Below are positions 25,821 to 64,000 of a stretch of DNA of 64,000 nucleotides, piece by piece. Every line of letters begins with the position of its first letter. The first letter of the stretch is position 1. The stretch is taken from positions 364,001 through 428,000 of the forward strand of contig JAQURM010000001.1 in NCBI GenBank assembly GCA_028715605.1, in the 5' to 3' direction. The stretch is from Desulfovibrionales bacterium (GTDB taxonomy: Bacteria > Desulfobacterota > QYQD01). The notes under the pieces are model-generated. The model did no database searches, had not been told where the DNA came from, and worked only from the letters and a program-made list of their open reading frames with translations. A program made the translations under genes and the position numbers.

Positions 25821-26648
25821 ATGAACGTCATCCTTTTTAAACTGACCTTATTGTTATACCTGGCGGCTACGGCAGGTTACCTGGTCTATATAATCTCTCA
25901 ACAAAGGCCGGCCGCCCGGGTAGCCATGGGCGTGGCCATCGCCGGCTTCTTTCTCCATACCGCCACCATCGTAGTCCGCTATTATGAAGCGGGTTACGCC
26001 CCGGTAACGAACCTGCACGAGTCTCTCTCGTTTTTTGCCTGGGCGCTGGTAGGCAGTTACCTCTACATTCACCAGCGGTACAAGGTGAAGAATCTGGGCG
26101 CCTTTGCTGCGCCGATAGCCGCTCTTTCCATGATCGCCTCTTCCACCCTTCCCAAGAAAATAATAGCCTTACCCCCGGTGCTCAAAAGTTATTGGCTGCC
26201 TGTTCATGCTACGGTTTATTTTTTTGCCTACGGAATTCTGGCCGTGGCTGCCTGTGCCGGTATCATGTATTTGATTCAGGAACGCCAGATCAAGAAAAAG
26301 AAGCTCGGGGCCTTTTATCAGCGCCTACCCTCTTTGGAGGTTCTGGATGCCATAAATTACCGCTGCCTGACCATCGGGTTTCCGCTTCTGACCGTGGGCA
26401 TACTAACCGGCTCGCTCTGGGCCGAGCAGGCCTGGGGTGCGCATTGGCAGTGGGATCCCAAGGAAACATGGTCTCTCGTCACCTGGCTTTTTTATGCGGC
26501 CCTTCTTCATGAACGCCTGACCGTAGGCTGGCGGGGGAGACGGGCGGCCATCATGGCCATCATCGGCCTGGGGGCATTGCTTTTTACATTCCTCGGGGTT
26601 TCGCTGCTGCTCAAAGGATTACATACTTATGCCGGATGGGGCGTTTAA
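25821..26648 (+). CDS. ccsA: CcsA/HemX-type cytochrome c biogenesis protein
   Basis: 275-residue inner-membrane protein with eight likely helices. The heme-handling WWD signature is complete: WGAHWQWDPKETWSLVTW. Conserved histidines sit near residues 34, 63 and 128 as in CcsA heme-export proteins. It belongs to system II cytochrome maturation (or the HemX branch that controls glutamyl-tRNA reductase), and its location before hemA fits either. Overlaps hemA by 20 bases. A second CcsA is at 48.2 kb, next to ResB. Confidence 0.9.
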   Translation: MNVILFKLTLLLYLAATAGYLVYIISQQRPAARVAMGVAIAGFFLHTATIVVRYYEAGYAPVTNLHESLSFFAWALVGSYLYIHQRYKVKNLGAFAAPIAALSMIASSTLPKKIIALPPVLKSYWLPVHATVYFFAYGILAVAACAGIMYLIQERQIKKKKLGAFYQRLPSLEVLDAINYRCLTIGFPLLTVGILTGSLWAEQAWGAHWQWDPKETWSLVTWLFYAALLHERLTVGWRGRRAAIMAIIGLGALLFTFLGVSLLLKGLHTYAGWGV

Positions 26649-42457: not shown

Positions 42458-42484
42458 TAAAGTCTTTTGATATCTTGCCGATAA
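42458..42484 (+). promoter_or_regulatory. Sigma-28 (FliA) promoter 1
   Basis: TAAAGTCT at 42458-42465, 11-base spacer, GCCGATAA at 42477-42484. Fits the consensus TAAAGTTT-N11-GCCGATAA at 15 of 16 positions. Confidence 0.85.
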
Positions 42485-42524
42485 ACATAACAAGTGAAAA
42501 AGTGTCCGGAAAAGAATAAAAAAT

Positions 42525-42551
42525 TAAAGTTTTCTCCATAGTTGCCGATAA
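42525..42551 (+). promoter_or_regulatory. Sigma-28 (FliA) promoter 2
   Basis: TAAAGTTT at 42525-42532, 11-base spacer, GCCGATAA at 42544-42551; all 16 consensus positions match. Same spacing as promoter 1, 67 bases downstream of it. Confidence 0.9.
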
Positions 42552-42836: not shown

Positions 42837-43934
42837 ATGAGAATGGCAGGTATGTTAAAAACCGGCTGTTTGGCGGTTCTATTGAGCGCATTCCTGGCCT
42901 TGATACCGGTCGGGTATGCCCTGGCAACCGTCACAGGTGCCTGCGTAAACTGCCATACCATGCACAACAGCCAGGGTGGTACGGAAATGCAGTTAAAGGC
43001 TGGAGAGACAGACCCACAGGGAAACCTGGTGCGCGGGACCTGTATCGGTTGTCACGGGAGCGAACCAGCAGGGGCAAACAACATCGTTACCAACATCCCT
43101 CAGGTGTGGCACTCTGCAGCTACTGACCTGGGCGGCGGTAATTTCAAGTACGTCGTAGATAGTGGCGATGCCTACGGACACAACGTCGAGGGCATCACGA
43201 CTGCAGACGCCACATTAGCGAACACCCCCCCAGGCTATGCAGCAGCTATGGATCCTGCAAGCACGGATTACGCTACCGGCAGCCGGCTGACCTGTGGCGG
43301 GCAAAATGGTTGCCATGGCAACCGGGATAATTCCGGCAATTATGCCGGTGTAAGTGGAGCCCACCATGCCAGTGACGCCGTCCTCAAGTTTGGCGGTATC
43401 GTCGAAGGTTCTCAAGGGGCTTCTGTAGCCACCAGTTACCGTTTCCTCTACAAAGTAAAGGGTGGAGAGGACACCGATTGGCAGAACACGGTTGGTGCCG
43501 CTGACCACAATGAGTATAAAGGTGCAATCTATGCCGCCAGAACCACCATGGCCTGGGCGGATGTCAATACCATAAGCGAGCTCTGTGCCGAGTGCCATGG
43601 TAGTTTCCATATGTCAGGCGCTACCGGTATTGGTACAGCCAGCCCCTGGATAAGACATCCAACTGATGTGCTCATACCCAATAGCGGTGAATATGCAAGC
43701 ATCTCGACTACTTATAATCCTACGGTTCCCGTGGCCAGGGCTACGATCCCCAATGCGGCGAGCGGTACGGTAGCTGCCGGTACTGATGTCGTCATGTGCC
43801 TCTCCTGTCACCGGGCCCATGCCAGCGGCTATGCGGATATTCTGAGATGGGACTACAGTGGTATGATAGCGAACGGAGGCGCTAATACCACCGGATGCTT
43901 TGTCTGCCATACCACCAAGGATAACGGTAGTTAA
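42837..43934 (+). CDS. OmcS-like hexaheme extracellular cytochrome c (sigma-28 driven)
   Basis: 365 residues from ATG 42837; in-frame ATG at 42807 and TTG at 42795 (6 bases after AGGAGGGG) are alternatives that only lengthen the signal-peptide n-region. Hydrophobic core LKTGCLAVLLSAFLALIP, cleavage near ALA. Heme motifs: CVNCH (TMHNSQGG), CIGCH, expanded C-x5-CH (CGGQNGCHGN), CAECH (GSFH, SPWIRHP), CLSCH (RAHASGY), CFVCH (TTK). Spacer residues between motifs resemble the 4.2-kb and 56.1-kb paralogues (GDAYGHNVEGI, NEYKGAIYA). Expected to be secreted and to act in extracellular electron transfer, probably as a filament subunit. A strong terminator follows the stop, so it is transcribed alone. 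Confidence 0.88.
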   Translation: MRMAGMLKTGCLAVLLSAFLALIPVGYALATVTGACVNCHTMHNSQGGTEMQLKAGETDPQGNLVRGTCIGCHGSEPAGANNIVTNIPQVWHSAATDLGGGNFKYVVDSGDAYGHNVEGITTADATLANTPPGYAAAMDPASTDYATGSRLTCGGQNGCHGNRDNSGNYAGVSGAHHASDAVLKFGGIVEGSQGASVATSYRFLYKVKGGEDTDWQNTVGAADHNEYKGAIYAARTTMAWADVNTISELCAECHGSFHMSGATGIGTASPWIRHPTDVLIPNSGEYASISTTYNPTVPVARATIPNAASGTVAAGTDVVMCLSCHRAHASGYADILRWDYSGMIANGGANTTGCFVCHTTKDNGS

Positions 43935-44543: not shown

Positions 44544-44588
44544 CGCTTGCGTTGAATCACTATTCATCCCTTGTGGAGGAAGCGCTAT

Positions 44589-45392
44589 ATGTTTTATAAA
44601 AAAGGACTAGTTGTTGTATTTGCGGTTCTGGCTATAGGCCTTATGGCAGCGGTTTTGTATTATAACGGTCCTGTTGGTAATGCCATTGCTGCAGAGGCGG
44701 CCCTGTCCAACAGCGATTGTGTGAAGTGCCACCCGCAACAGCCGGAGACTATTGCCTCTAAAGGGGCCAAACACAAGACGGCTATTGGATGTTTGGATTG
44801 CCATACCGAACATCCACCCCAGGGCACGCAGGCTATCCCAAAATGTGCTATGTGCCATGCCGGTAAGCCTCACTATGAATTGCCCGAATGCGCTTCCTGC
44901 CATGCGGATACCCATGCCCCGTTAGATATCAAGATGGGCGAGAAGACCACGCCGGTATGTCTTACCTGCCATCCACAGCAGGGAAATGAGATGGCGGTTT
45001 CTCCAAGCAAACATGCCCAGTTGGATTGCTCAAAGTGTCACCCGGCGCACAGACAGTACCTCGATTGTCTAAAGTGTCACGATCCGCATACCCAAGGCAT
45101 GACCTTTGAGACCTGCAAGGCCTGTCATCCACCGCATAAGCCCCTGGATATCAAATATGGCATGGATACACCCTCAGAGACCTGTGCGGCGTGCCACTAT
45201 GATGCCTATGACAACTTGAAGGCCAACACTACGAAACATCATGATCTATCTTGTGCCTATTGCCATCGCGATAAACACAAGGTGGTTCCGCCCTGCGAGG
45301 CATGTCATGGGAAACCGCACGCATCCGGTATCCATGCGAAATATACGGAATGCGGCAAGTGTCATGGCGCTGCGCATACCCTGATGAAATAG
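44589..45392 (+). CDS. Dodecaheme (12 CxxCH) cytochrome c, membrane-anchored or secreted
   Basis: 267 residues from ATG 44589 (GGAGG 10 bases before); a TTG at 44571 is a frame extension. N-terminal hydrophobic segment (GLVVVFAVLAIGLMAAVLY), either a signal peptide or an anchor. Twelve CxxCH: CVKCH, CLDCH, CAMCH, CASCH, CLTCH, CSKCH, CLKCH, CKACH, CAACH, CAYCH, CEACH, CGKCH. One heme per ~21 residues, each motif mostly followed within a few residues by a His that can be a distal ligand (CHxxH, CHPPH). Family: c7/c3-like wires. Probably shuttles electrons across the periplasm. Close relative of the next gene. Confidence 0.9.
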   Translation: MFYKKGLVVVFAVLAIGLMAAVLYYNGPVGNAIAAEAALSNSDCVKCHPQQPETIASKGAKHKTAIGCLDCHTEHPPQGTQAIPKCAMCHAGKPHYELPECASCHADTHAPLDIKMGEKTTPVCLTCHPQQGNEMAVSPSKHAQLDCSKCHPAHRQYLDCLKCHDPHTQGMTFETCKACHPPHKPLDIKYGMDTPSETCAACHYDAYDNLKANTTKHHDLSCAYCHRDKHKVVPPCEACHGKPHASGIHAKYTECGKCHGAAHTLMK

Positions 45393-45469
45393 GCCGGTTG
45401 GCCTGATACGTAAGCGATAAGGGGCGCCCCAAAGGCGCCTCTCCAAGGTTTAGTTATGAGAGGTGGACA

Positions 45470-46393
45470 ATGAAAAGATTGCTGGTAGCCTTTGGGGGGT
45501 TAGTATTACTGCTTATCGCAGTTATTTGGGGTTGCGCGGAGCAGCGTGTAGTTACGGTGCCGGCCCCGGGTACTGTTGTAGAAGAAGGGGGCATGGCTAT
45601 TATGCCGGCCCCGGCGGAAACGCCAGCGGTAGTGGCAACGCCGGCTAAGGCCAAGGCCAAAATAGTGCCGCTGTATGAGAAGGAGATATCGCCTCTAAAG
45701 ACAGAGCAGTGCGGTCAGTGCCATTTGTATTATTACAATACCATCCGCAATGAAGGCGGCAAGCACCAGATCGATTGCACCAAGTGTCATGAAAAATACC
45801 ACGTGTACCGTCCGGACAAGGTCAAATACGAAGACATTATGCCTAAATGCAACACCTGTCACGGACTGGCTCACGGTGATAAACTGGCTAACTGCGTTGC
45901 TTGCCACGCCAACCCACATGCGCCGACGGGCAAGATGGCCGGTCCGGACATGGATGCCGGATGTTCCACCTGTCACGGCAAGGTAGCCGACGAGCTTAAG
46001 ACCCATAAGAGTAAACATACAGACGTGGCGTGTTCCGACTGCCATACCGTGCACCGTCATATTCCGGTTTGTGCCGATTGTCATACACCGCATACACCGA
46101 CCCAGACCAATGCCGAGTGTTTAAGCTGCCACCCGGTGCACAGGCCACTGGTGATCACGTATCCGCTCGAAACACCACGCGACACCTGTGGGGCATGCCA
46201 TCCCAAGGCCCTGCAGGAACTCCAGAAGAGCCAGACCAAGCACGATCAACTAAGTTGTGCCAAATGCCATCCCAAACATCGGGATATTATCCAGTGCGAG
46301 GCCTGCCATGGCCAGCCGCATAGCCCGACTATGCTTAAGGGCTTCAAAAAATGCGGTGACTGCCATAATACTGCCCACGCTATGCCCAGGTAA
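45470..46393 (+). CDS. Dodecaheme lipoprotein cytochrome c
   Basis: 307 residues. Signal peptide with lipobox AVIWGC, so the mature protein is lipid-anchored at Cys22. A 50-residue Pro/Ala linker (TVPAPGTVVEEGG, PAPAETPAVVATPAKAKAK) precedes twelve CxxCH: CGQCH, CTKCH, CNTCH, CVACH, CSTCH, CSDCH, CADCH, CLSCH, CGACH, CAKCH, CEACH, CGDCH. Heme spacing follows the preceding gene from motif to motif (ETPRDTCGACH vs TPSETCAACH; CEACHGQPH vs CEACHGKPH), so the two are tandem duplicates with different anchoring. It may sit on the outer membrane periplasmic face. 77-base gap to gene 1; terminator after stop. Confidence 0.92.
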   Translation: MKRLLVAFGGLVLLLIAVIWGCAEQRVVTVPAPGTVVEEGGMAIMPAPAETPAVVATPAKAKAKIVPLYEKEISPLKTEQCGQCHLYYYNTIRNEGGKHQIDCTKCHEKYHVYRPDKVKYEDIMPKCNTCHGLAHGDKLANCVACHANPHAPTGKMAGPDMDAGCSTCHGKVADELKTHKSKHTDVACSDCHTVHRHIPVCADCHTPHTPTQTNAECLSCHPVHRPLVITYPLETPRDTCGACHPKALQELQKSQTKHDQLSCAKCHPKHRDIIQCEACHGQPHSPTMLKGFKKCGDCHNTAHAMPR

Positions 46394-46451: not shown

Positions 46452-46783
46452 GCATTCTAGGGATGGAAAATGTCATCCCTTCGCTTCACGGCTTGCGCAG
46501 TGATCCGCCTCCGGCGGGACTCGCAGGTGGGGAAGGGTTGCCCCTTCCAGCCTCTAAAGGGCTGGCTTTCCCCTTCCTGCTCGCCCTCGAAGGGTTCCCC
46601 ACTGCTCCAAGCAAGTTTCGCGAAGGAACAACGGCTTCCATAAAAATGTGGGGAAAGTCCTAAGGCTATAAAATCCTTGACAAGCGGGGGACAGGGATGT
46701 TAATGAATGGACTGCTTTTTAGGTAGTCTTCACAAGATTTCCGTGACTTATGACACCTTAACAACCCTTTGAGATACAATGAC
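46452..46783. repeat. Gap with second copy of the ~150-bp interspersed repeat
   Basis: 46478-46640 is the partner of 33235-33384 in opposite orientation, with a few small indels (e.g. GGCGGGACTCGCAGG vs GGCACTCGCAGGC). The rest (46641-46783) shows no gene. Confidence 0.8.
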
Positions 46784-48154
46784 ATGAAACCGGAAAACAG
46801 CCCGTCAGTACCACCTGAAAAAAAACAACCTGTCTGGAAATCTCTCGCCTCGGTTAACCTCACCATATTTCTACTTATATTTCTCGCGGTAAGCTCTATT
46901 GTCGGGACTCTTATCCCTCAAAATGAGCCTCCCGCTATGTATGTTCAGCGGTATGGGTATGGCACTTACCAGCTTTTGGATTCGTTATCTCTTCTGGACC
47001 TCTATCACTCGGGTTGGTTTAGACTCCTTCTCCTTCTCCTGGCGCTGAACCTTATCGTCTGTACTACGGACAGGCTCCGGCATGTCTGGGATATTGTTTT
47101 CCCAAAAGAAAAGAGGCTTAACGAAAACGCTGTCCTGACCAAGCCAGGGACGAGGGCCTTAAAATATAAAGCGAACCCTTCCGTGGTTAAGGCCGCACTC
47201 TTGCCCATTCTTTCAGGTAATCTGGGCGACCTGAACGAGACTACCACCGGCTCAACAACAATTCTCTGGCGAGAAAAGGGAAGGTTATCCCGTCTCGGCG
47301 TCTATGTTGTGCATCTTAGTGTCGTTATTTTCTATATTGCCGGGATAGCGAGCTCTCTGGGTGGGTTCATGACCAGCATTAATCTGCCGGAAGGGGCGGC
47401 GGTGGAACAGGTGCCCCTGCCTAATACTAACGTAGGCTATAACCTGGGCTTTGCCCTCCGCGTTGACAAGTTTGAGGCCCAGTTTTATCCCACCGGCGAA
47501 CCAAGGGATTACCGCAGCGACATAACCATTATCGAAAACGGGAAGCCGGTTTTGAACGGCAACATCCGGGTCAACCAGCCTCTTACGTACAGAGGTATCA
47601 CTTTTTATCAGGCCTCTTACGGCCGCTTCCCAAAGACGATTGAACTTAATCTGGTTGATAAAACCAGCGGGAAAATCATTCCGCTTTCTGTTCCATTCGG
47701 CCAGGAGGCCATTTTGCCTGATGGGCTGGGCACCCTCCGTTCATTACGGGTTGAACCGAATGTGATGGATATGGGCCCCGCGGTTCAGATGCTGCTGACC
47801 AGCCCTGAGGGAGGACAAACCGACCTTTGGATATTCAAAAACAACCCGGACTTTGGACGGGTCAAGAAATTACCGTACCGGTTTCTTGTAACTGAGGTAA
47901 GGGAAGGTTTCTACACCGGCCTCCAGGTAGCCAAGGAACCGGGCATCCTCTTTGTCTGGGCCGGCAGTATATTAATGGTATTGGGAATTGCCGTGACCTT
48001 TTTCATGTCACACCGTAAGATATGGGCTGTGCTGGAGAAAAAAGGCGAGGGGACAACGGTTACCATCGGCGGCCAGACAAATAAAAACAAACTGGGGTTG
48101 GAAGAAAGGCTTGATAATCTCTACCTGCAACTCCAGAAAGCCGATATAAAATAA
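46784..48154 (+). CDS. resB: ResB/Ccs1-type cytochrome c biogenesis protein
   Basis: 456 residues from ATG 46784 (TTG at 46769 is only an extension). Three N-terminal helices around VNLTIFLLIFLAVSSIVGTLIPQ, SGWFRLLLLLLALNLIV and RLGVYVVHLSVVIFYIAGI, then a ~230-residue periplasmic domain (FALRVDKFEAQFYPTGEPRD, NGNIRVNQPLTYRGITFYQ), then a last helix (GILFVWAGSILMVLGI). With CcsA it forms the system II synthase that attaches heme to CxxCH apocytochromes. HxS/LTYRG motifs are typical of ResB. Next gene ccsA starts 18 bases later; one operon. No clear ribosome site before the ATG. Confidence 0.95.
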   Translation: MKPENSPSVPPEKKQPVWKSLASVNLTIFLLIFLAVSSIVGTLIPQNEPPAMYVQRYGYGTYQLLDSLSLLDLYHSGWFRLLLLLLALNLIVCTTDRLRHVWDIVFPKEKRLNENAVLTKPGTRALKYKANPSVVKAALLPILSGNLGDLNETTTGSTTILWREKGRLSRLGVYVVHLSVVIFYIAGIASSLGGFMTSINLPEGAAVEQVPLPNTNVGYNLGFALRVDKFEAQFYPTGEPRDYRSDITIIENGKPVLNGNIRVNQPLTYRGITFYQASYGRFPKTIELNLVDKTSGKIIPLSVPFGQEAILPDGLGTLRSLRVEPNVMDMGPAVQMLLTSPEGGQTDLWIFKNNPDFGRVKKLPYRFLVTEVREGFYTGLQVAKEPGILFVWAGSILMVLGIAVTFFMSHRKIWAVLEKKGEGTTVTIGGQTNKNKLGLEERLDNLYLQLQKADIK

Positions 48155-48172: not shown

Positions 48173-48973
48173 ATGCTGAGTTCGAAGATTCTCGCTGTCG
48201 TAACGTTCAGCTATCTTGCGGCAGTGATATTTTATCTGAGCGCCCTGATCTTTAAGACAAAAATCGGCCAGCGGATCGCTTCGGTTGTCACTATAGGCAC
48301 CTTTGTTGCACATACCGCTGCCATTATTTTACGCTGGGTTGAATCCCACAACCTCGGGATCGGCCATGCCCCATTTGCCAATTTTTATGAGTCCCTGGTC
48401 TTCTTTGCCTGGGCAATAATTTTGATCCATTTTATTGCTGAATATAAATATAAACTCGCCCACGCAGGCGTGTTCACGGTACCTTTTGCCTTCCTCGGTC
48501 TGGCCTACGCCTCGTTTTCACCGACTATTTCAAGCCGCATTGAACCGCTTGTCCCGGCCTTGCAGAGCAACTGGCTCATTGCCCATGTCATCACCTGCTT
48601 TATCGGTTATGGCGCATTCGCTGTTTCCTGTGGCCTGAGTATCGCGTACCTGTTTAAAAGATCCGATGACAAAAAAGACCTGGATACCCTTAACTATCGG
48701 GTGATTGTCTTTGGTTTTCTGTTTCTTACCGCCGGCATCGCAACCGGTTCCATCTGGGCACACTCGGCCTGGGGGGCCTACTGGCAATGGGACCCTAAAG
48801 AAACCTGGTCTCTGATTACGTGGTTTGTCTATGCGATCATCCTTCATGTCCGTCTGCGCGGCTGGCATGGCAAAAAGATCGCCCTGCTCTCCATTGGCGG
48901 CTTTCTGTCGGTGCTCTTTACTTATTTTGGCGTCAATTTCCTCCTCTCCGGCCTGCACAGCTATATAAATTAA
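48173..48973 (+). CDS. ccsA: CcsA-type cytochrome c biogenesis protein
   Basis: 266-residue membrane protein, eight likely helices, with the complete WWD motif WGAYWQWDPKETWSLITW and His residues in WVESHNLGIGHAP and FVAHTAA. Partner of the upstream ResB. Distinct from the CcsA at 25.8 kb in the hemA operon, so the two copies probably serve different maturation or HemX-like roles. Translation start 18 bases from the resB stop. Confidence 0.95.
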   Translation: MLSSKILAVVTFSYLAAVIFYLSALIFKTKIGQRIASVVTIGTFVAHTAAIILRWVESHNLGIGHAPFANFYESLVFFAWAIILIHFIAEYKYKLAHAGVFTVPFAFLGLAYASFSPTISSRIEPLVPALQSNWLIAHVITCFIGYGAFAVSCGLSIAYLFKRSDDKKDLDTLNYRVIVFGFLFLTAGIATGSIWAHSAWGAYWQWDPKETWSLITWFVYAIILHVRLRGWHGKKIALLSIGGFLSVLFTYFGVNFLLSGLHSYIN

Positions 48974-56088: not shown

Positions 56089-57258
56089 CTAATTCTTGCT
56101 TGTGTGACACTGGAAGCAGCCGCCGGTTCCTCCACCGCTGGCCTGGATAGTCGCATAGTCCCATCGAAGCATGTCAGGATAGGGGCTGGCGTGGGCCTTA
56201 TGGCAGGAGAGACACATAACCATGTCCGTACCGATGGTTACCGTGTCACTGACCGCGACGAGTGCGGGGCGGGCTACGGGGACGATGGGGTCATACGTCG
56301 CGGTGCCGCCACCGGCACCGAAAGCGTCGGCGTATTCACCGGACGCCGGTATCCTGCGATCTACGGGGTGTCGTATCCAGGCCCCTCCCTGTCTCTTGAT
56401 GTGGAAATTTCCGTGACAACCGCAGCAGAAGGCTGTGGCCGTGTTGGCCTGTATGGAGACAAACCCGCCAGTCCCGCTGGCGACCTGCTTACCGAGGTAC
56501 TCATTATGGTCATTGGCACTGCTGGTGTATTGCCAGTCGCCGTCCTCTATGCCTGCAACTCCGTACTGGTAACCGCTGAAATGGCCCGACAGAAAGCGGT
56601 ACCATCCCTCTGCAGCGCTATCCGCCACCCCATCCGTAACACTGGTATGATGCCAACTCTTGATTTGACTGAACTTGTTGAAGCCTGATACCATATGACA
56701 GCCGGTGCAGCCGGATCGCCCGTTCAGGTAGCCATGAATGGGCTCGAATTCGGAAGAAGCCTGAAAAGGAAGATGGAGATTGCTATGGCAAACGTTTGTG
56801 CCACAGCCGCCGCCTACGTACGCTTCCCCGGGGGCGCTCATCAGGACGTCATCGGGATTGGTTGAGAATATGTTATGCCCGTTTGCGTCATTTACCGTTA
56901 CCCAATAAAAATTCCCGCCGGCGAGGCCTTGACTGCCGTAGGAGGGCTGGCCGGTATTATTGACAATAGGAGCGCCGGTTACCGGATCTTTCCAGGTCGC
57001 GCCGTCGGTGGCTGAATGGCAGCCCACACAGTCGCCTACCAGGAGTTGACCGTAGGGGCCTCCGGGTTCTACCGGAAGCCCCCCCTGACTGTTGTGCATG
57101 GTGTGGCAGTTGGCACATGGTCCTGTTACTCTGGCGGAAGCGGCGGGTGGGAGCGATAGGATCAGGACAAGGGAAAAGATTAAAGTCGCCGCGAATGTGA
57201 GTGCCTTTTGCCGGGGTATCTTGATGACCGATTTCGTCCGGTCCTTGGGCATGACCAT
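56089..57258 (-). CDS. OmcS-like heptaheme extracellular cytochrome c
   Basis: 389 residues. Signal peptide (ALTFAATLIFSLVLILSLPP, ending ASA). Heme motifs: CANCH (TMHNSQGG), CVGCH, expanded C-x4-CH (CGTNVCH), an additional CTGCH (MVSGFNKF), CCGCH (GNFHIKRQGGAWIRHP), CLSCH (KAHASPYPDMLRW), CFQCH (TSKN). The added CTGCH makes seven motifs against six in the two paralogues, and the third motif has one residue less than the C-x5-CH there. AGGAG lies 11 bases before ATG 57258. It is convergent with prfC and starts a separate transcript. Confidence 0.88.
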   Translation of the reverse strand: MVMPKDRTKSVIKIPRQKALTFAATLIFSLVLILSLPPAASARVTGPCANCHTMHNSQGGLPVEPGGPYGQLLVGDCVGCHSATDGATWKDPVTGAPIVNNTGQPSYGSQGLAGGNFYWVTVNDANGHNIFSTNPDDVLMSAPGEAYVGGGCGTNVCHSNLHLPFQASSEFEPIHGYLNGRSGCTGCHMVSGFNKFSQIKSWHHTSVTDGVADSAAEGWYRFLSGHFSGYQYGVAGIEDGDWQYTSSANDHNEYLGKQVASGTGGFVSIQANTATAFCCGCHGNFHIKRQGGAWIRHPVDRRIPASGEYADAFGAGGGTATYDPIVPVARPALVAVSDTVTIGTDMVMCLSCHKAHASPYPDMLRWDYATIQASGGGTGGCFQCHTSKN

Positions 57259-57669: not shown

Positions 57670-58089
57670 TTACGAGAACATTTTTTTTACCCAGCTTCCT
57701 TCAACTTTTGTCTCAGGTCCCTGGCTTGCCATCACTTTTTCAACCTTGTCGACCAAACGGGTGAGTTGCTCGTCCTTGACGACGTATTCTTTTGCGCCCA
57801 GAGAAAAACCCCGTTCTATGTCGGCAATCTTGTCCGCAGTCGTAGCCATAATGACGGGTATCTTGCGCAATTCAGGATGAATCTTTAAAGAGCGAAGGAC
57901 CTGCCAACCGTCCATCCCCGGCATATTCACATCCAGGATAATGAGGTCCGGCTTTTTTCCCCTGGCGATACTCAGCCCTTCTTTGCCGTCGAGGGCACTG
58001 ATAACTTGAAACCCTGCATTCTCCAATGCCAACCTGAACTTGGCTTGAACCAACTTTGAATCATCGACCAACAAGATCGTTATGTCCAT
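57670..58089 (-). CDS. CheY-like single-domain response regulator
   Basis: 139 residues. Receiver fold: LLVDDSKLVQAKFRL (acid pocket), phospho-Asp in LIILDVNMPGMDGWQVL, Thr in VIMATTADKI and Lys in AKEYVVKDE. No output domain. The last 20 residues (ASQGPETKVEGSWVKKMFS) are an extra tail. It lies opposite to the chemotaxis operon and separate from it by 450 bases. Possible partner for the orphan kinase at 33.4 kb or for CheA. Confidence 0.9.
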   Translation of the reverse strand: MDITILLVDDSKLVQAKFRLALENAGFQVISALDGKEGLSIARGKKPDLIILDVNMPGMDGWQVLRSLKIHPELRKIPVIMATTADKIADIERGFSLGAKEYVVKDEQLTRLVDKVEKVMASQGPETKVEGSWVKKMFS

Positions 58090-58539: not shown

Positions 58540-58842
58540 ATGGCTGATGCGTATTCTCCGTGTCAGGAACAGGCAGAAGGCATTATTAAGTTGCGTGGCG
58601 AGATAGGCGTCCACCATCTTGACGACTTATATGAGTGCCTGAAGGATCGGTTTGTGCTGGAGCAGGATCTGACTATAGACTGTCAGGAAGTTGTACAGAT
58701 GGATACAGCGGCTATACAGATACTGATAGCCTTCAAAAAATCTCTTACCGAAGGTCACAGGCTGACCATTAAAAATATACCGCCCGACTTGGAAAAGGTT
58801 TGGGAAATAATCGGGGTCAAACAGATGCTCCTGAAAGAATAG
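58540..58842 (+). CDS. STAS-domain protein (anti-anti-sigma type)
   Basis: 100 residues. STAS fold with IIKLRGEIGVHHLDDLYECL, LTIDCQEVVQMDTAAIQILI and LTIKNIPPDLEKVWEIIG. The site usually phosphorylated (DS/DT) is MDTAA here, so control by phosphorylation is possible. It opens the chemotaxis operon. In Geobacter-type clusters such proteins adjoin CheA/CheX genes. Precise role unknown. Confidence 0.85.
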   Translation: MADAYSPCQEQAEGIIKLRGEIGVHHLDDLYECLKDRFVLEQDLTIDCQEVVQMDTAAIQILIAFKKSLTEGHRLTIKNIPPDLEKVWEIIGVKQMLLKE

Positions 58843-58855
58843 GCGGGGACGCTAT

Positions 58856-59233
58856 ATGGAAAAACATGTCCTGGTAGTTGATGATTCACCCACTCTGCGC
58901 GCCAGCATCTCTTTTTGCCTGACCAACGCCGGTTACAGGGTATCTGAGGCTGTGAACGGTCAGGACGGGCTCGTCAGGCTGCAAGAGATGGAGTCCCAAA
59001 AGAAGCCGCCGGCCTTGATTATCTCAGACGTAAACATGCCCGAAATGGACGGCATAACCTTTATAAAAGAAGTCAAAAAAACAAACTGGAAGTTTATCCC
59101 GATCCTTGTTCTGACCACCGAATCACAAGAAGCGCAGAAATTGAGAGGAAAGTCTGCCGGAGCCGCGGGCTGGCTCTTGAAACCTTTCCGGCCGGAACAA
59201 CTTCTCTGGGTCGTAAGAAAATTTGTCCGTTGA
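58856..59233 (+). CDS. cheY: CheY-type response regulator
   Basis: 125 residues. VLVVDDSPTLRASISF, phospho-Asp in LIISDVNMPEMDGITF, Thr in VLTTESQEAQK, Lys in AAGWLLKPFRPEQL. Second in the operon, 13 bases after STAS and 9 bases before cheA. It is likely to be phosphorylated by the following CheA and act on flagella or another output. Confidence 0.95.
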   Translation: MEKHVLVVDDSPTLRASISFCLTNAGYRVSEAVNGQDGLVRLQEMESQKKPPALIISDVNMPEMDGITFIKEVKKTNWKFIPILVLTTESQEAQKLRGKSAGAAGWLLKPFRPEQLLWVVRKFVR

Positions 59234-59242
59234 GAATAGACT

Positions 59243-61384
59243 ATGGAACAGGACGAGCTGTTACAGATATATTTTTCAGAAGCTGACGAATTGTTGCAAA
59301 CCATGGAACATAGTCTGATGACCCTGGAATCCGATCCGCAAAATCAGTCCGTTATTAACGAGGTCTTCCGGGCGATGCACACAATGAAGAGCAGCTCGGC
59401 TATGGTCGGCTTTACCCAGCTCTCTGAACATGCCCATCTCCTGGAAAACCTCATGGAAAGGATACGCAGCAAACAACTGCCTATAACCCAAAACCTGGTT
59501 TCCTTTCTCCTGGAAAACCATGATGTTATAAAATCGGCAGTGGAAAATGCGGCCCAGGGAAAGCCGGACGTGGGGCTGGATGCCTTTCCGGCCATGGCCG
59601 AAAAAGTAAAACGGTTCCTGGGCCTCGCCGCAGGACAAGAAGAAGACCGGGTAACTGCGCCGATAACTACCGGCATGTCCGGCGGCCAGAAGGAATCCTC
59701 CGGGGGATCTTATTATGAGATTGATATGCGCTTTCGCAAGGACATCTTCCAGACCGGACAGGATCCGCTGATGCTGCTGTATGAACTGGGAGATTTGGCT
59801 GAGATAATATCAGTAGAGACAGACCTGTCTTCTCTGCCGCCATTTCTGGAAATGGACCCCTTCCAGCTTTACCTTGCCTGGCGGCTCCTGATCAAAACCG
59901 ACCGACCCCTGCCCACCATAGAAAAGGTATTCGTCTTTGTTCAGGAAGATGAATTAAACCAGGTTTCCATAAGAGACGTATCATCACATTTTCGGGAAGG
60001 GGTGGACACCAGAATGGCTGACAAGCCGCTGGGAGAGATATTAATTGATCAAAAACTGGTCAGCGAGCAGGAAATACAAGAAGTCCTCACCCAGCAGAAA
60101 AAGGTGGGAGAGGCTTTATTAGAAAAGGGCAAAATCTCCCCGGATGAACTAAATAAGATCGTTGACCTCCAGGAAAAAAGCCGGACGGTCCTTCGTAAGT
60201 CCACGGTACGCGTAGATACAGATAAGCTCGACCAGCTCGCAAACATGGTGGAGGAAATGACCATACAACTGGCGCGAATCTCCGCCATCCTGGGGGATTT
60301 GCCACCGGACGTCACCAGAAAATTGGGCAGTGAGCCGGATATCCTGAACAGGATTGGCCGGGAGGTGCAGGAACAGGTTATGCGTCTCCGCATGTTTCCT
60401 ATCGAAGGCACATTTCAAAGGTTTCAAAGAATGGCCCGGGACCTGGCCCGGGAGCAACATAAGCAGATTAAGATTATTCTGGGCGGGGGAGAGACAGAAC
60501 TGGACAAGGATGTTATCGAACACATAAACGATCCCTTAACGCACATAATACGCAATTGTATCGGCCACGGGATCGAAGATCCTGACGAAAGAAAGCAGTC
60601 GGGCAAAACCCCGGAGGGGATCATCAACCTTAATGCTTACCAACAGGAAGGCAAGATATACATTGAAATTAAGGATGATGGCCGCGGTATCGACGCCGAA
60701 GCAGTGCGGCGAAAGGCTATAGAACGGGGCCTGATCAAAGAAAACGACCAGCCCTCGCCTGAAGAGATTTACAAGTTTCTATTTATTCCTGGATTTTCCA
60801 CCGCTAAAGAGGTCAGTTCTATATCCGGCCGCGGGGTAGGGATGGACGTAGTACAGAATAACATTCAGCAATTGGGAGGGACGATCGATATCTTTTCCGA
60901 AAAGGGCAAAGGAGCTACCTTCGTCATAAAGCTTCCTTTAACCCTGGCGGTTATTGATGGTATGTATGTTGGCGTGGGGGCCGATATTTTTGTCATACCC
61001 TTGCTAACCGTTCTAAGCACAGCCGTGCTTAAAAAAGGCAACTTAAAGACCATAGAAGGCAAGGGTGAGGTGGTACGTTTGGGGGATTCATACGTGCCGC
61101 TCATCCACCTGGATAGAATCCTGGGTATAGAACGCCGGCAAACAGATACAGAACCATTGGTCGTCTTTGTAAGCAGTGAAAAAAGGATCCTGGGCCTAGG
61201 CGTGGACGAAATACTCGATCATCAGCAGGTCGTAATTAAAAACCTGGAGAAAAATTTCTGTAGAATTTCCGGGATTGCCGGAGGCGCTATTATGCCTGAT
61301 GGCAGCGTAGCTCTCGTCCTGGACGTGTATGGTCTGGATCATCTATTCTTTGGTCGAAATCGGGTCCATGAGCTAGTCCATTGA
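59243..61384 (+). CDS. cheA: Chemotaxis histidine kinase CheA
   Basis: 713 residues. Hpt domain with phospho-His46 in FRAMHTMKSSSAMVG. A middle section with a motif like the GSPII_E_N/MshEN type (PLGEILIDQKLVSEQEIQEV, ~res 260-305). Dimerisation helices, then HATPase: N-box IIRNCIGHGIEDPDER (usual DHGIE reads GHGIE), DDGRGID, FSTAKEVSSISGRGVGMDVV. CheW-like domain from ~560 (TLAVIDGMYVGVGADIFVIP). The Asp-to-Gly in the N-box is unusual. Operon with cheY and MCP; 20-base gap to the MCP. Confidence 0.95.
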   Translation: MEQDELLQIYFSEADELLQTMEHSLMTLESDPQNQSVINEVFRAMHTMKSSSAMVGFTQLSEHAHLLENLMERIRSKQLPITQNLVSFLLENHDVIKSAVENAAQGKPDVGLDAFPAMAEKVKRFLGLAAGQEEDRVTAPITTGMSGGQKESSGGSYYEIDMRFRKDIFQTGQDPLMLLYELGDLAEIISVETDLSSLPPFLEMDPFQLYLAWRLLIKTDRPLPTIEKVFVFVQEDELNQVSIRDVSSHFREGVDTRMADKPLGEILIDQKLVSEQEIQEVLTQQKKVGEALLEKGKISPDELNKIVDLQEKSRTVLRKSTVRVDTDKLDQLANMVEEMTIQLARISAILGDLPPDVTRKLGSEPDILNRIGREVQEQVMRLRMFPIEGTFQRFQRMARDLAREQHKQIKIILGGGETELDKDVIEHINDPLTHIIRNCIGHGIEDPDERKQSGKTPEGIINLNAYQQEGKIYIEIKDDGRGIDAEAVRRKAIERGLIKENDQPSPEEIYKFLFIPGFSTAKEVSSISGRGVGMDVVQNNIQQLGGTIDIFSEKGKGATFVIKLPLTLAVIDGMYVGVGADIFVIPLLTVLSTAVLKKGNLKTIEGKGEVVRLGDSYVPLIHLDRILGIERRQTDTEPLVVFVSSEKRILGLGVDEILDHQQVVIKNLEKNFCRISGIAGGAIMPDGSVALVLDVYGLDHLFFGRNRVHELVH

Positions 61385-61403: not shown

Positions 61404-63713
61404 ATGCTTAAATTACTTAAGGCCTACATCAACAAGAAATTGCGCTTCAAGATTCTGATTGCACTAATATTGACCTCGGCGCTTTTTGTGGGGGTCCTTA
61501 TATACCTCGGCGTTAATGGTTACAGAGAAGACGTCCTGAATAAAGTGACGCGGTTTGAGCTGGAACTGGCGAACATGACACACGCGGGAATAAAACACCC
61601 CATGGCTATCGGCAATATGGATGCAGTCAAGGAACAACTAAAAGACATCAAAACGGCTATGAAGGGGATAGAGGTTTACATAACGGATGCCGACCAGACT
61701 GTATTCTATGCCAGTCATGAAGAAACAGTCGGAACTAATCTCGGAAACCTGTTAGCGGATCCTGAACTCACAAAAACCCTGAGCAACATACTTTCTACCG
61801 GCGCTGATCCCAGACGACCATTCCTGCAGACTATAAATGGCGAACCATATAACCTTATCTTTCATCCCATTCTTAATGAACCGGCTTGTTACAACTGCCA
61901 TGCCCCGGCCAAAAGGGTGCTGGGCTCTCTGGTGGTGCGTCAATCCGTAGCCGCTGATTATGCTTCTATTGCCTCTCTTAGAAACCGGTATATCATGGCC
62001 GGAGCGCTGGGAGTCATATCTTTGGTTGTAATCCTTAACTATCTGATAACCCGCCTCATCACGCGTCGCATCCGTTACCTATCCGATAAGGTAACCCAGG
62101 TAGCCGAAGGAGACGTAGATGTAAATATCGAGGTGAGGGGCGAAGACTCCATAGGAAGGTTGAATAAAAACTTCAATATCATGCTGCTACACCTGCGTGA
62201 CAGGATAGAATATGCGAACAGTCTGAAGCGCGGGATCAGCGATCCATTCTTCGTTGTCGATCCAGATCTAACCATAACCTATATGAACGATGCCGCTGCG
62301 GCCATAACCGGATACCAGAAAGAGGAAGTAGTAGGCAAGATGAAGTGTTGGGACGTTTTCAAAAGCAATCTCTGCACCGACTGTAGCTTAAAAAAGTGTA
62401 TGGCCACCGGCCAGGCTGCGGAAGCGGAAAGGGTGCGGTGCGAAATAACCAACCGCCATGGAAAGATAGTTCCCATAGAGGCCAGCGTTGCCGCCCTTAA
62501 AGACGCTGGCGGCAAGATACTGGGGGGCTTCAAGATCTTTCATGATATCACCGCCAGGGTCGAAGCAGAAAAGATTCTCAAAGAAACAGCCGCTAAGGAA
62601 GAGGAGCAAAGGCGATATCTGGAAGGACGGGTGGACAATCTGCTCAATGTCCTGGACAAGGCCGCCGGGGGAGATCTCACGGCCAGAGTAGAGTCCATAG
62701 GTAAAAAAGACCTCATGGACAGGCTGGCAGACAAGGTCAACGAGATGTTCGAGAAGATTGGCTCGCTCATAAAGCAGACAAAAAGGACTGCGAACATTGT
62801 GGCTCAGGGGACAAATCAGATCTCCGCGGGTAATCAGGACCTGTCGCAGCGGACTCAGGAGCAGGCGGCCACTATAGAAGAAGCCGGCGCCACCCTCGAA
62901 CAAATGACCGCCAATGTCAGCCAGAACGCTGCCAATACCATGAAGGTCAACCAGTTGGCCCAGGAATCCGTGACCCTGGCGCAGGAAGGAACATCAGTAG
63001 TGAAAGAGACGGTCCATGCCATGACTGAGGTGTGGACCGCCAGCAAAAAAATTGTAGAAATTATGGACCTGGTTAACGAGATCACCTTTCAGACCAATCT
63101 CCTGGCCCTTAATGCCGCGGTGGAGGCCGCCCGGGCCGGTGAACACGGCCGCGGTTTTGCGGTGGTAGCCACGGAAATACGCAATCTTTCCAAGAGAAGC
63201 GGGGAGGCAGCTAAAGATATACAGAATCTCATCCATGACAGTATGGCTAAGATTGAAGAAAGCCATAAGTTAGTCGGTCAAACCGGCAGCAGTCTGGAAA
63301 AGATAACCGGATGCATTACTGCCGTGTCCGAGGCCGTTTCTGAGGTCTCGGCGGCTACTCAGGAACAATCACGCAGTATTGAGCAAGTGAATCAGGCTGT
63401 TACCGATATGGGGGATGTTGTACAGCAAAATGCCGCTCTGGTTGAACAATTAGCAGGCGCTAGTCAAACGCTGGCGGCTAAGGCCGCACTCCTGAAAAAG
63501 TTAACTAAGGAATTTTCTGTGGCCGGGGCAGATGAAGATTCCATAGAGGAAGAGCCGTTGACTCCGGCAACTCTCACCGGGAGAGAAAAAAGGGGGACTA
63601 TGCCCCCGGTAAAAAGGCCTTTACGTCAAGATATGTTGCAAAAGGCCGTGCTTAAGGAGATATCCCCGGAAGAAGCAGATCTCAACATGGAGGAAGGTTT
63701 TGAAGAATTCTAA
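61404..63713 (+). CDS. Heme-binding methyl-accepting chemotaxis protein with PAS
   Basis: 769 residues. TM1 (~17-37), periplasmic sensor (~38-200) with a c-type heme motif CYNCH at residues 162-166, TM2 (~198-215), HAMP (~218-270), cytoplasmic PAS (~275-390) with a cysteine group KMKCWDVFKSNLCTDCSLKK, further linker with HAMP-like part, then the signalling hairpin ([21 protein letters not shown]). A covalent heme in a chemoreceptor sensor resembles, from memory, Geobacter GSU0582/GSU0935 and Desulfovibrio DcrA, which sense redox state or small gases. Cytochrome maturation by the ResB/CcsA pair of this window would be needed. In one operon with CheA and CheW. Confidence 0.93.
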   Translation: MLKLLKAYINKKLRFKILIALILTSALFVGVLIYLGVNGYREDVLNKVTRFELELANMTHAGIKHPMAIGNMDAVKEQLKDIKTAMKGIEVYITDADQTVFYASHEETVGTNLGNLLADPELTKTLSNILSTGADPRRPFLQTINGEPYNLIFHPILNEPACYNCHAPAKRVLGSLVVRQSVAADYASIASLRNRYIMAGALGVISLVVILNYLITRLITRRIRYLSDKVTQVAEGDVDVNIEVRGEDSIGRLNKNFNIMLLHLRDRIEYANSLKRGISDPFFVVDPDLTITYMNDAAAAITGYQKEEVVGKMKCWDVFKSNLCTDCSLKKCMATGQAAEAERVRCEITNRHGKIVPIEASVAALKDAGGKILGGFKIFHDITARVEAEKILKETAAKEEEQRRYLEGRVDNLLNVLDKAAGGDLTARVESIGKKDLMDRLADKVNEMFEKIGSLIKQTKRTANIVAQGTNQISAGNQDLSQRTQEQAATIEEAGATLEQMTANVSQNAANTMKVNQLAQESVTLAQEGTSVVKETVHAMTEVWTASKKIVEIMDLVNEITFQTNLLALNAAVEAARAGEHGRGFAVVATEIRNLSKRSGEAAKDIQNLIHDSMAKIEESHKLVGQTGSSLEKITGCITAVSEAVSEVSAATQEQSRSIEQVNQAVTDMGDVVQQNAALVEQLAGASQTLAAKAALLKKLTKEFSVAGADEDSIEEEPLTPATLTGREKRGTMPPVKRPLRQDMLQKAVLKEISPEEADLNMEEGFEEF

Positions 63714-63728: not shown

Positions 63729-64000
63729 ATGGAAGAACAGTATATAACCTTTTATCTTGATGACGAAGAATACGGGATAGAAATTAATAAGATAAGAGAA
63801 ATCATCGGCTATCGCCGTTTTACCCGGGTACCCGGGGTTAAAGATATTGTAAAGGGGATGGTTAACTTGCGCGGTGTTATATTTCCCATCTTTGACCTGA
63901 GGCTCAAGTTTAATCTGCCACCAAAGGAATACAACAAATTTTCCGTTATATTTGTCCTGGAAATCGCGGGGCGTGTCATGGGCATTATCGTAGATACTAC
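63729..64000 (+). CDS. cheW: CheW-type adaptor (partial, runs off window end)
   Basis: The first 90 residues of a CheW: EEQYITFYLDDEEYGIEINK, GYRRFTRVPGVKDIVKGMVN, LRGVIFPIFDLRLKF, VIFVLEIAGRVMGIIVDT. It couples the receptor above to CheA. ATG 15 bases after the MCP stop; AAGGAGCCAAAG provides a ribosome site. The C-terminal part and any later chemotaxis genes lie outside. Confidence 0.95.
   Translation, partial: MEEQYITFYLDDEEYGIEINKIREIIGYRRFTRVPGVKDIVKGMVNLRGVIFPIFDLRLKFNLPPKEYNKFSVIFVLEIAGRVMGIIVDT

Follow-up and report, generated by a model that had tools for sequence, protein, structure and literature searches.

The receptor gene and its surroundings

The window, a stretch of 64,000 nucleotides from a Desulfovibrionales bacterium, contained near its end a gene encoding a chemoreceptor (MCP) with the domain order TM, periplasmic domain, TM, HAMP, PAS and MCP signaling domain (Table 1). 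The HAMP, PAS and MCPsignal matches were all above the Pfam cut-offs. F-x-x-F tails resembling the C-terminal GFEEF of this receptor were present on other MCPs of the same genome. The cytoplasmic PAS domain contained a cysteine cluster, Cys315-x8-Cys324-x2-Cys327-x4-Cys332, of which Cys315, Cys324 and Cys327 were retained in most homologs; other MCPs encoded in the genome have tandem PAS domains in which the same cysteines were kept.

The gene order of the operon was STAS-CheY-CheA-MCP-CheW-CheR-CheD-CheB-RR/GGDEF, the last four of these genes lying beyond the window. CheA, CheW, CheY, CheR and CheB were thus all encoded with the MCP, which agrees with the placement of the receptor inside a chemotaxis operon by the first-pass annotation. 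The same gene order around a relative of the receptor recurred elsewhere in the genus and in genomes from four further families of the phylum (G041, G350, G008 and G050), with the G008 contig ending early and no CheB detected in G041. The final protein, a response regulator (RR)-GGDEF protein, contained the sequence GGEEF with an RxxD inhibitory site five residues before it, and is therefore likely to be a diguanylate cyclase that is active and subject to feedback inhibition. There were two other CheA genes in the genome, one of them in a complete che cluster that also encodes CheY, CheR, CheD and CheB, and flagellin-family genes were also present. A gene for a single-domain response regulator lay between the operon and an OmcS-like cytochrome gene, divergent from the operon.

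Table 1. Positions of features in the window, with the evidence for each assignment
Feature	Position	Strand	Evidence or remark
CcsA-like gene (second)	25821-26648		
Tandem sigma-28-like sites (starts 42458 and 42525)	42458-42551	+	TAAAGTYT-N11-GCCGATAA
OmcS-like multiheme cytochrome	42837-43931	+	joint profile of both cytochromes
Two adjacent multiheme proteins	44571-46393	+	many CxxCH
ResB-like gene	46769-48154	+	sequence and position, no family search
CcsA, system II cytochrome c maturation	48173-48973	+	PF01578, E 7.4e-53
OmcS-like multiheme cytochrome	56089-57258	-	joint profile of both cytochromes
Single-domain response regulator	57670-58089	-	
STAS-domain protein, first operon gene	58540-58842	+	PF13466, E 1.8e-11
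CheY-like response regulator	58856-59233	+	PF00072, E 2.5e-25
CheA	59243-61384	+	Hpt, H-kinase_dim, HATPase_c and CheW domains
Chemoreceptor (MCP) gene	61404-63713	+	open ORF, 769 aa
TM1, residues ~12-40	61437-61523	+	hydropathy
Periplasmic Cache/PAS-like sensor domain, residues ~41-194	61524-61985	+	homology to 3B42/3B47; AlphaFold model
Met67, predicted distal heme ligand	61602-61604	+	conservation; alignment to 3B42
CYNCH c-heme attachment motif, residues 162-166 (His166 predicted proximal ligand)	61887-61901	+	
TM2, residues ~195-220	61986-62063	+	hydropathy
HAMP domain, residues 214-266	62043-62201	+	PF00672, E 1.9e-15
Cytoplasmic PAS domain, residues 278-384	62235-62555	+	PF13426, E 2.6e-18
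Cysteine cluster of the PAS domain	62346-62399	+	
MCP signaling domain (MCPsignal), residues 517-672	62952-63419	+	PF00015, E 1.8e-48
C-terminal GFEEF, possible CheR/CheB/CheD docking tail	63696-63710	+	sequence; function inferred
CheW, runs beyond the window end	63729-64000	+	
CheR, CheD, CheB, RR-GGDEF	outside window, after CheW (L072 14141-17660)		

Two multiheme cytochromes encoded in the window were paralogs with 46% identity. The one nearer to the receptor had no match in the PDB when searched alone, and a profile of both matched only OmcS (E 1.7e-9), so the gene 4 kb from the receptor that had been called a filament cytochrome gene does encode a relative of OmcS. At the place named for sigma-28 promoters (42.5 kb) there were two such sites in tandem, sigma-28-like in sequence, at 42.46 and 42.53 kb. 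They were the only exact matches to the tested sigma-28 pattern in the genome and lay approximately 290 to 380 bp before the other OmcS-like paralog, with its start taken at 42837. A search for a sigma-28-like site upstream of the che operon found none, and the earlier suggestion of one program of motility and electron export is thus unsupported at the operon; a shared program is an unproven proposal that rests on proximity. An RNA controlling the cytochromes was also considered and was rejected, as no GEMM or other c-di-GMP riboswitch in the window was over threshold and a tRNA was the sole RNA match.

The CxxCH motif and the homology of the sensor domain

The CYNCH motif was located exactly at the residues and bases first reported for it, and the two hydrophobic segments that flank it place it in the periplasmic part of the MCP, also as proposed. 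Given the composition of this protein, approximately 0.001 CxxCH motifs would be expected by chance, and when eight MCP ORFs of the genome were examined, this receptor alone contained one. Alignment of 48 homologous sensors showed that CxxCH was invariant (48 of 48), with Cys162, Cys165, His166, Asn158 and Gly174 the invariant positions. Because a query that holds the motif might favor sequences bearing it, the search was repeated with sensor residues up to 156 only, and CxxCH was found just downstream in all 30 loci examined, which speaks against the cysteine-lacking homologs that had been named as evidence to the contrary.

A scan for contigs of close relatives returned only two, both from MAGs of the same genus, so a sample of the phylum was used to find relatives of the sensor, and these were present at E ≤ 1e-8 in 43 of the 395 sampled genomes. 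Within the genus, orthologs whose sensors were 92-94% identical were found in three of four further genomes. Other relatives of the sensor were in some cases part of histidine kinases, or of MCPs encoded apart from che clusters of this kind. In the genome of the receptor itself, two histidine kinases had related periplasmic sensors with CxxCH (L012, G000:C4:86139-86558; L013, G000:C1:475122-475532).

Comparison with solved structures pointed to two chemoreceptor sensors of Geobacter sulfurreducens. A single-sequence search of the PDB gave 3B42 (GSU0935) at E 0.067, too weak to establish the match, and a profile of 28 relatives, with no row seeded by PF21563, gave 3B42 at E 2.7e-12 and 3B47 (GSU0582) at E 2.3e-8 as the sole strong matches. 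Each of these two domains has one covalent heme c (PMC8396549, PMC3460858). In the profile alignment the CxxCH of the receptor was in register with that of 3B42, in which the motif histidine, His144, is chain residue 110; by the same offset, Met67 was aligned with chain residue 26, which is Met60, the distal heme ligand of GSU0935 (PMC8396549). This alignment predicts heme ligation by His166 and Met67. Met67 was found in 43 of the 48 aligned sensors, and since four homologs had leucine at this position and retained CxxCH, the methionine is not obligatory.

The sensor scored below the curated 27-bit cut-off of PF21563 (Mcp40H-20_sensor), with 19.8 bits for the whole protein and 23.2 bits (E 8.9e-5) for the domain alone. 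All 35 homologs compared with this family matched it at E ≤ 0.01, and one that was 40% identical to this sensor (G162) was above the cut-off, so the domain is here considered a relative of PF21563 and is not called a member. Similarity to PF11845 (Tll0287-like, sCache_heme) was lower, at 10.4 bits (E 0.87) with a curated cut-off of 24.1, and 14 of the 35 homologs matched it at E ≤ 0.01. An AlphaFold model of the sensor as a monomer had a pLDDT of 92, and its first-ranked Foldseek match was 3B42_B (E 6.7e-7). The TM-scores of the model to 3B42 were low (0.38 and 0.52) and the rmsd large, which fits the helix-swapped crystal dimer of 3B42 and does not in itself prove that the fold is the same in detail.

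The cell is very probably able to make heme c, because the window contained a ResB-like gene, a CcsA gene and a second CcsA-like gene. Directly 5' of the ResB/CcsA genes, two adjacent multiheme proteins were encoded. Taken at the level of sequence, the receptor very probably carries a covalent heme outside the inner membrane, and the first-pass proposal of a heme sensor can be kept as far as a covalent c-heme sensor in a chemoreceptor is concerned, by way of homology to GSU0935 and GSU0582.

Proposed signal and output of the receptor

The explanation considered probable as a whole is that this is a c-heme receptor of the GSU0935 type, in which a redox- or NO-dependent ligation switch acts on a dedicated CheA array with c-di-GMP as a likely output. 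On the periplasmic side, system II maturation would link one heme to Cys162 and Cys165; His166 would be the proximal axial ligand and Met67, in the first helix, the distal one. Oxidation, or NO displacing Met67, would change the ligation of the iron, and this would shift the long helices and TM2 and, via HAMP, alter CheA in the receptor's own chemosensory array. CheA would then phosphorylate the CheY and the response regulator-diguanylate cyclase of the operon, and c-di-GMP, acting on attachment or motility, would be set according to periplasmic redox state. Redox-linked release of the methionine has been measured in GSU0582 and GSU0935 (PMC8396549); for the receptor described here, we infer heme loading and a ligand switch, as well as what it senses and what it controls.

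The alternatives to this explanation overlap with it and with each other, and the likelihoods assigned to them are not meant to add up to one. If the sensor were a cofactor-free Cache domain, it would bind a small ligand or a protein, and CxxCH would be vestigial or metal-binding. Many Cache and PDC domains without a cofactor did rank high in VIA-align, where cofactor-free Cache domains aligned as well or better, but CxxCH was the most conserved feature of the domain (48 of 48 and 30 of 30) and the solved domains nearest in sequence carry heme c, which makes this reading very improbable. It is also possible, but rather unlikely, that NO and not redox potential is the main signal, binding the ferrous heme, displacing an axial ligand and triggering the array. 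A HAMP-linked sCache_heme protein binds NO tightly and forms no stable complex with O2 (PMC12889525), and GSU0582 has high affinity for NO in its oxidized form (PMC8396549). However, the former example has no distal axial ligand from the protein (PMC12889525), whereas Met67 is largely conserved here, and the measured relatives with methionine ligation have been proposed to be triggered by redox (PMC8396549). The conservation of Met67 favors a redox switch like that of GSU0935, where the methionine leaves on oxidation (PMC8396549).

The proposal of the first-pass annotation that the cell steers by redox potential corresponds to classical redox taxis, in which the receptor would act through CheY on the flagellar motor so that cells swim along redox gradients. 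The CheY gene in the operon and the flagellin-family genes are consistent with this, as is DcrA of Desulfovibrio, proposed as an oxygen or redox sensor in work cited in PMC8396549. This is a serious possibility that nevertheless falls somewhat short of being probable, as it must be set against the two other CheA genes, one of them in a full che cluster, the diguanylate cyclase at the end of the heme-receptor operon in several families, and the lack of a sigma-28-like site before the operon. Since a response regulator-diguanylate cyclase gene closes the operon and other CheA genes are available, the array of the GSU0935-type receptor may control c-di-GMP besides, or in place of, swimming; with a separate CheY and flagellin genes present, the output may also be ordinary chemotaxis. 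A broader suggestion, which is tentative, is that a conserved type of chemosensory cluster of the Desulfobacterota joins a c-heme receptor, as its dedicated input, to a diguanylate cyclase as one output, so that periplasmic redox state (or NO) sets c-di-GMP, with the conserved cysteine cluster of the cytoplasmic PAS domain as a second redox input to this receptor.

Comparison with known systems

Like GSU0935 and GSU0582, the receptor has the arrangement TM-sensor-TM-HAMP-MCP, a CxxCH toward the sensor's C-terminal end with N-E before the motif and G after it, and, by alignment only, a distal methionine in helix 1. In contrast to these proteins, its sensor is longer (~150 residues) and only ~20% identical, it has an additional cytoplasmic PAS domain with a cysteine cluster, and its gene belongs to a che operon that also includes STAS and RR-GGDEF genes. 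The MCP genes of Geobacter are mostly dispersed (PMC2577667).

The receptor shares with the sCache_heme or Tll0287-like domains (DUF3365, PF11845) an extracytoplasmic fold of the Cache type that has an inserted CxxCH; GSU0935 and GSU0582 have been counted among these domains (PMC12889525). Tll0287 has Cys/His ligation, whereas Met/His ligation is predicted for the receptor. DcrA of Desulfovibrio vulgaris, as far as it is described in PMC8396549, is likewise an MCP with a c-heme periplasmic domain and a cytoplasmic PAS domain. Characterized sensors of c-heme chemoreceptors are mainly the two Geobacter domains and DcrA. In several families, the genes for a dedicated CheA, a CheY and a diguanylate cyclase accompany that of the present receptor, and this provides a defined circuit in which signal and output of such receptors could be tested. 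By their proximity only, the nearby OmcS-like genes raise the question of whether redox sensing, attachment and electron export are linked.

Chemosensory systems of the Wsp type have c-di-GMP as output, and their MCP array is encoded alongside a response regulator-diguanylate cyclase. The operon described here shares this pairing of genes but differs in having CheY, STAS and CheD as separate genes and in lacking a CheA-REC fusion. By profile homology, the receptor joins the GSU0935-type c-heme chemoreceptors, a kind already known from Geobacter, and the added interest is its setting, inside a recurring che operon that ends in a diguanylate cyclase gene.
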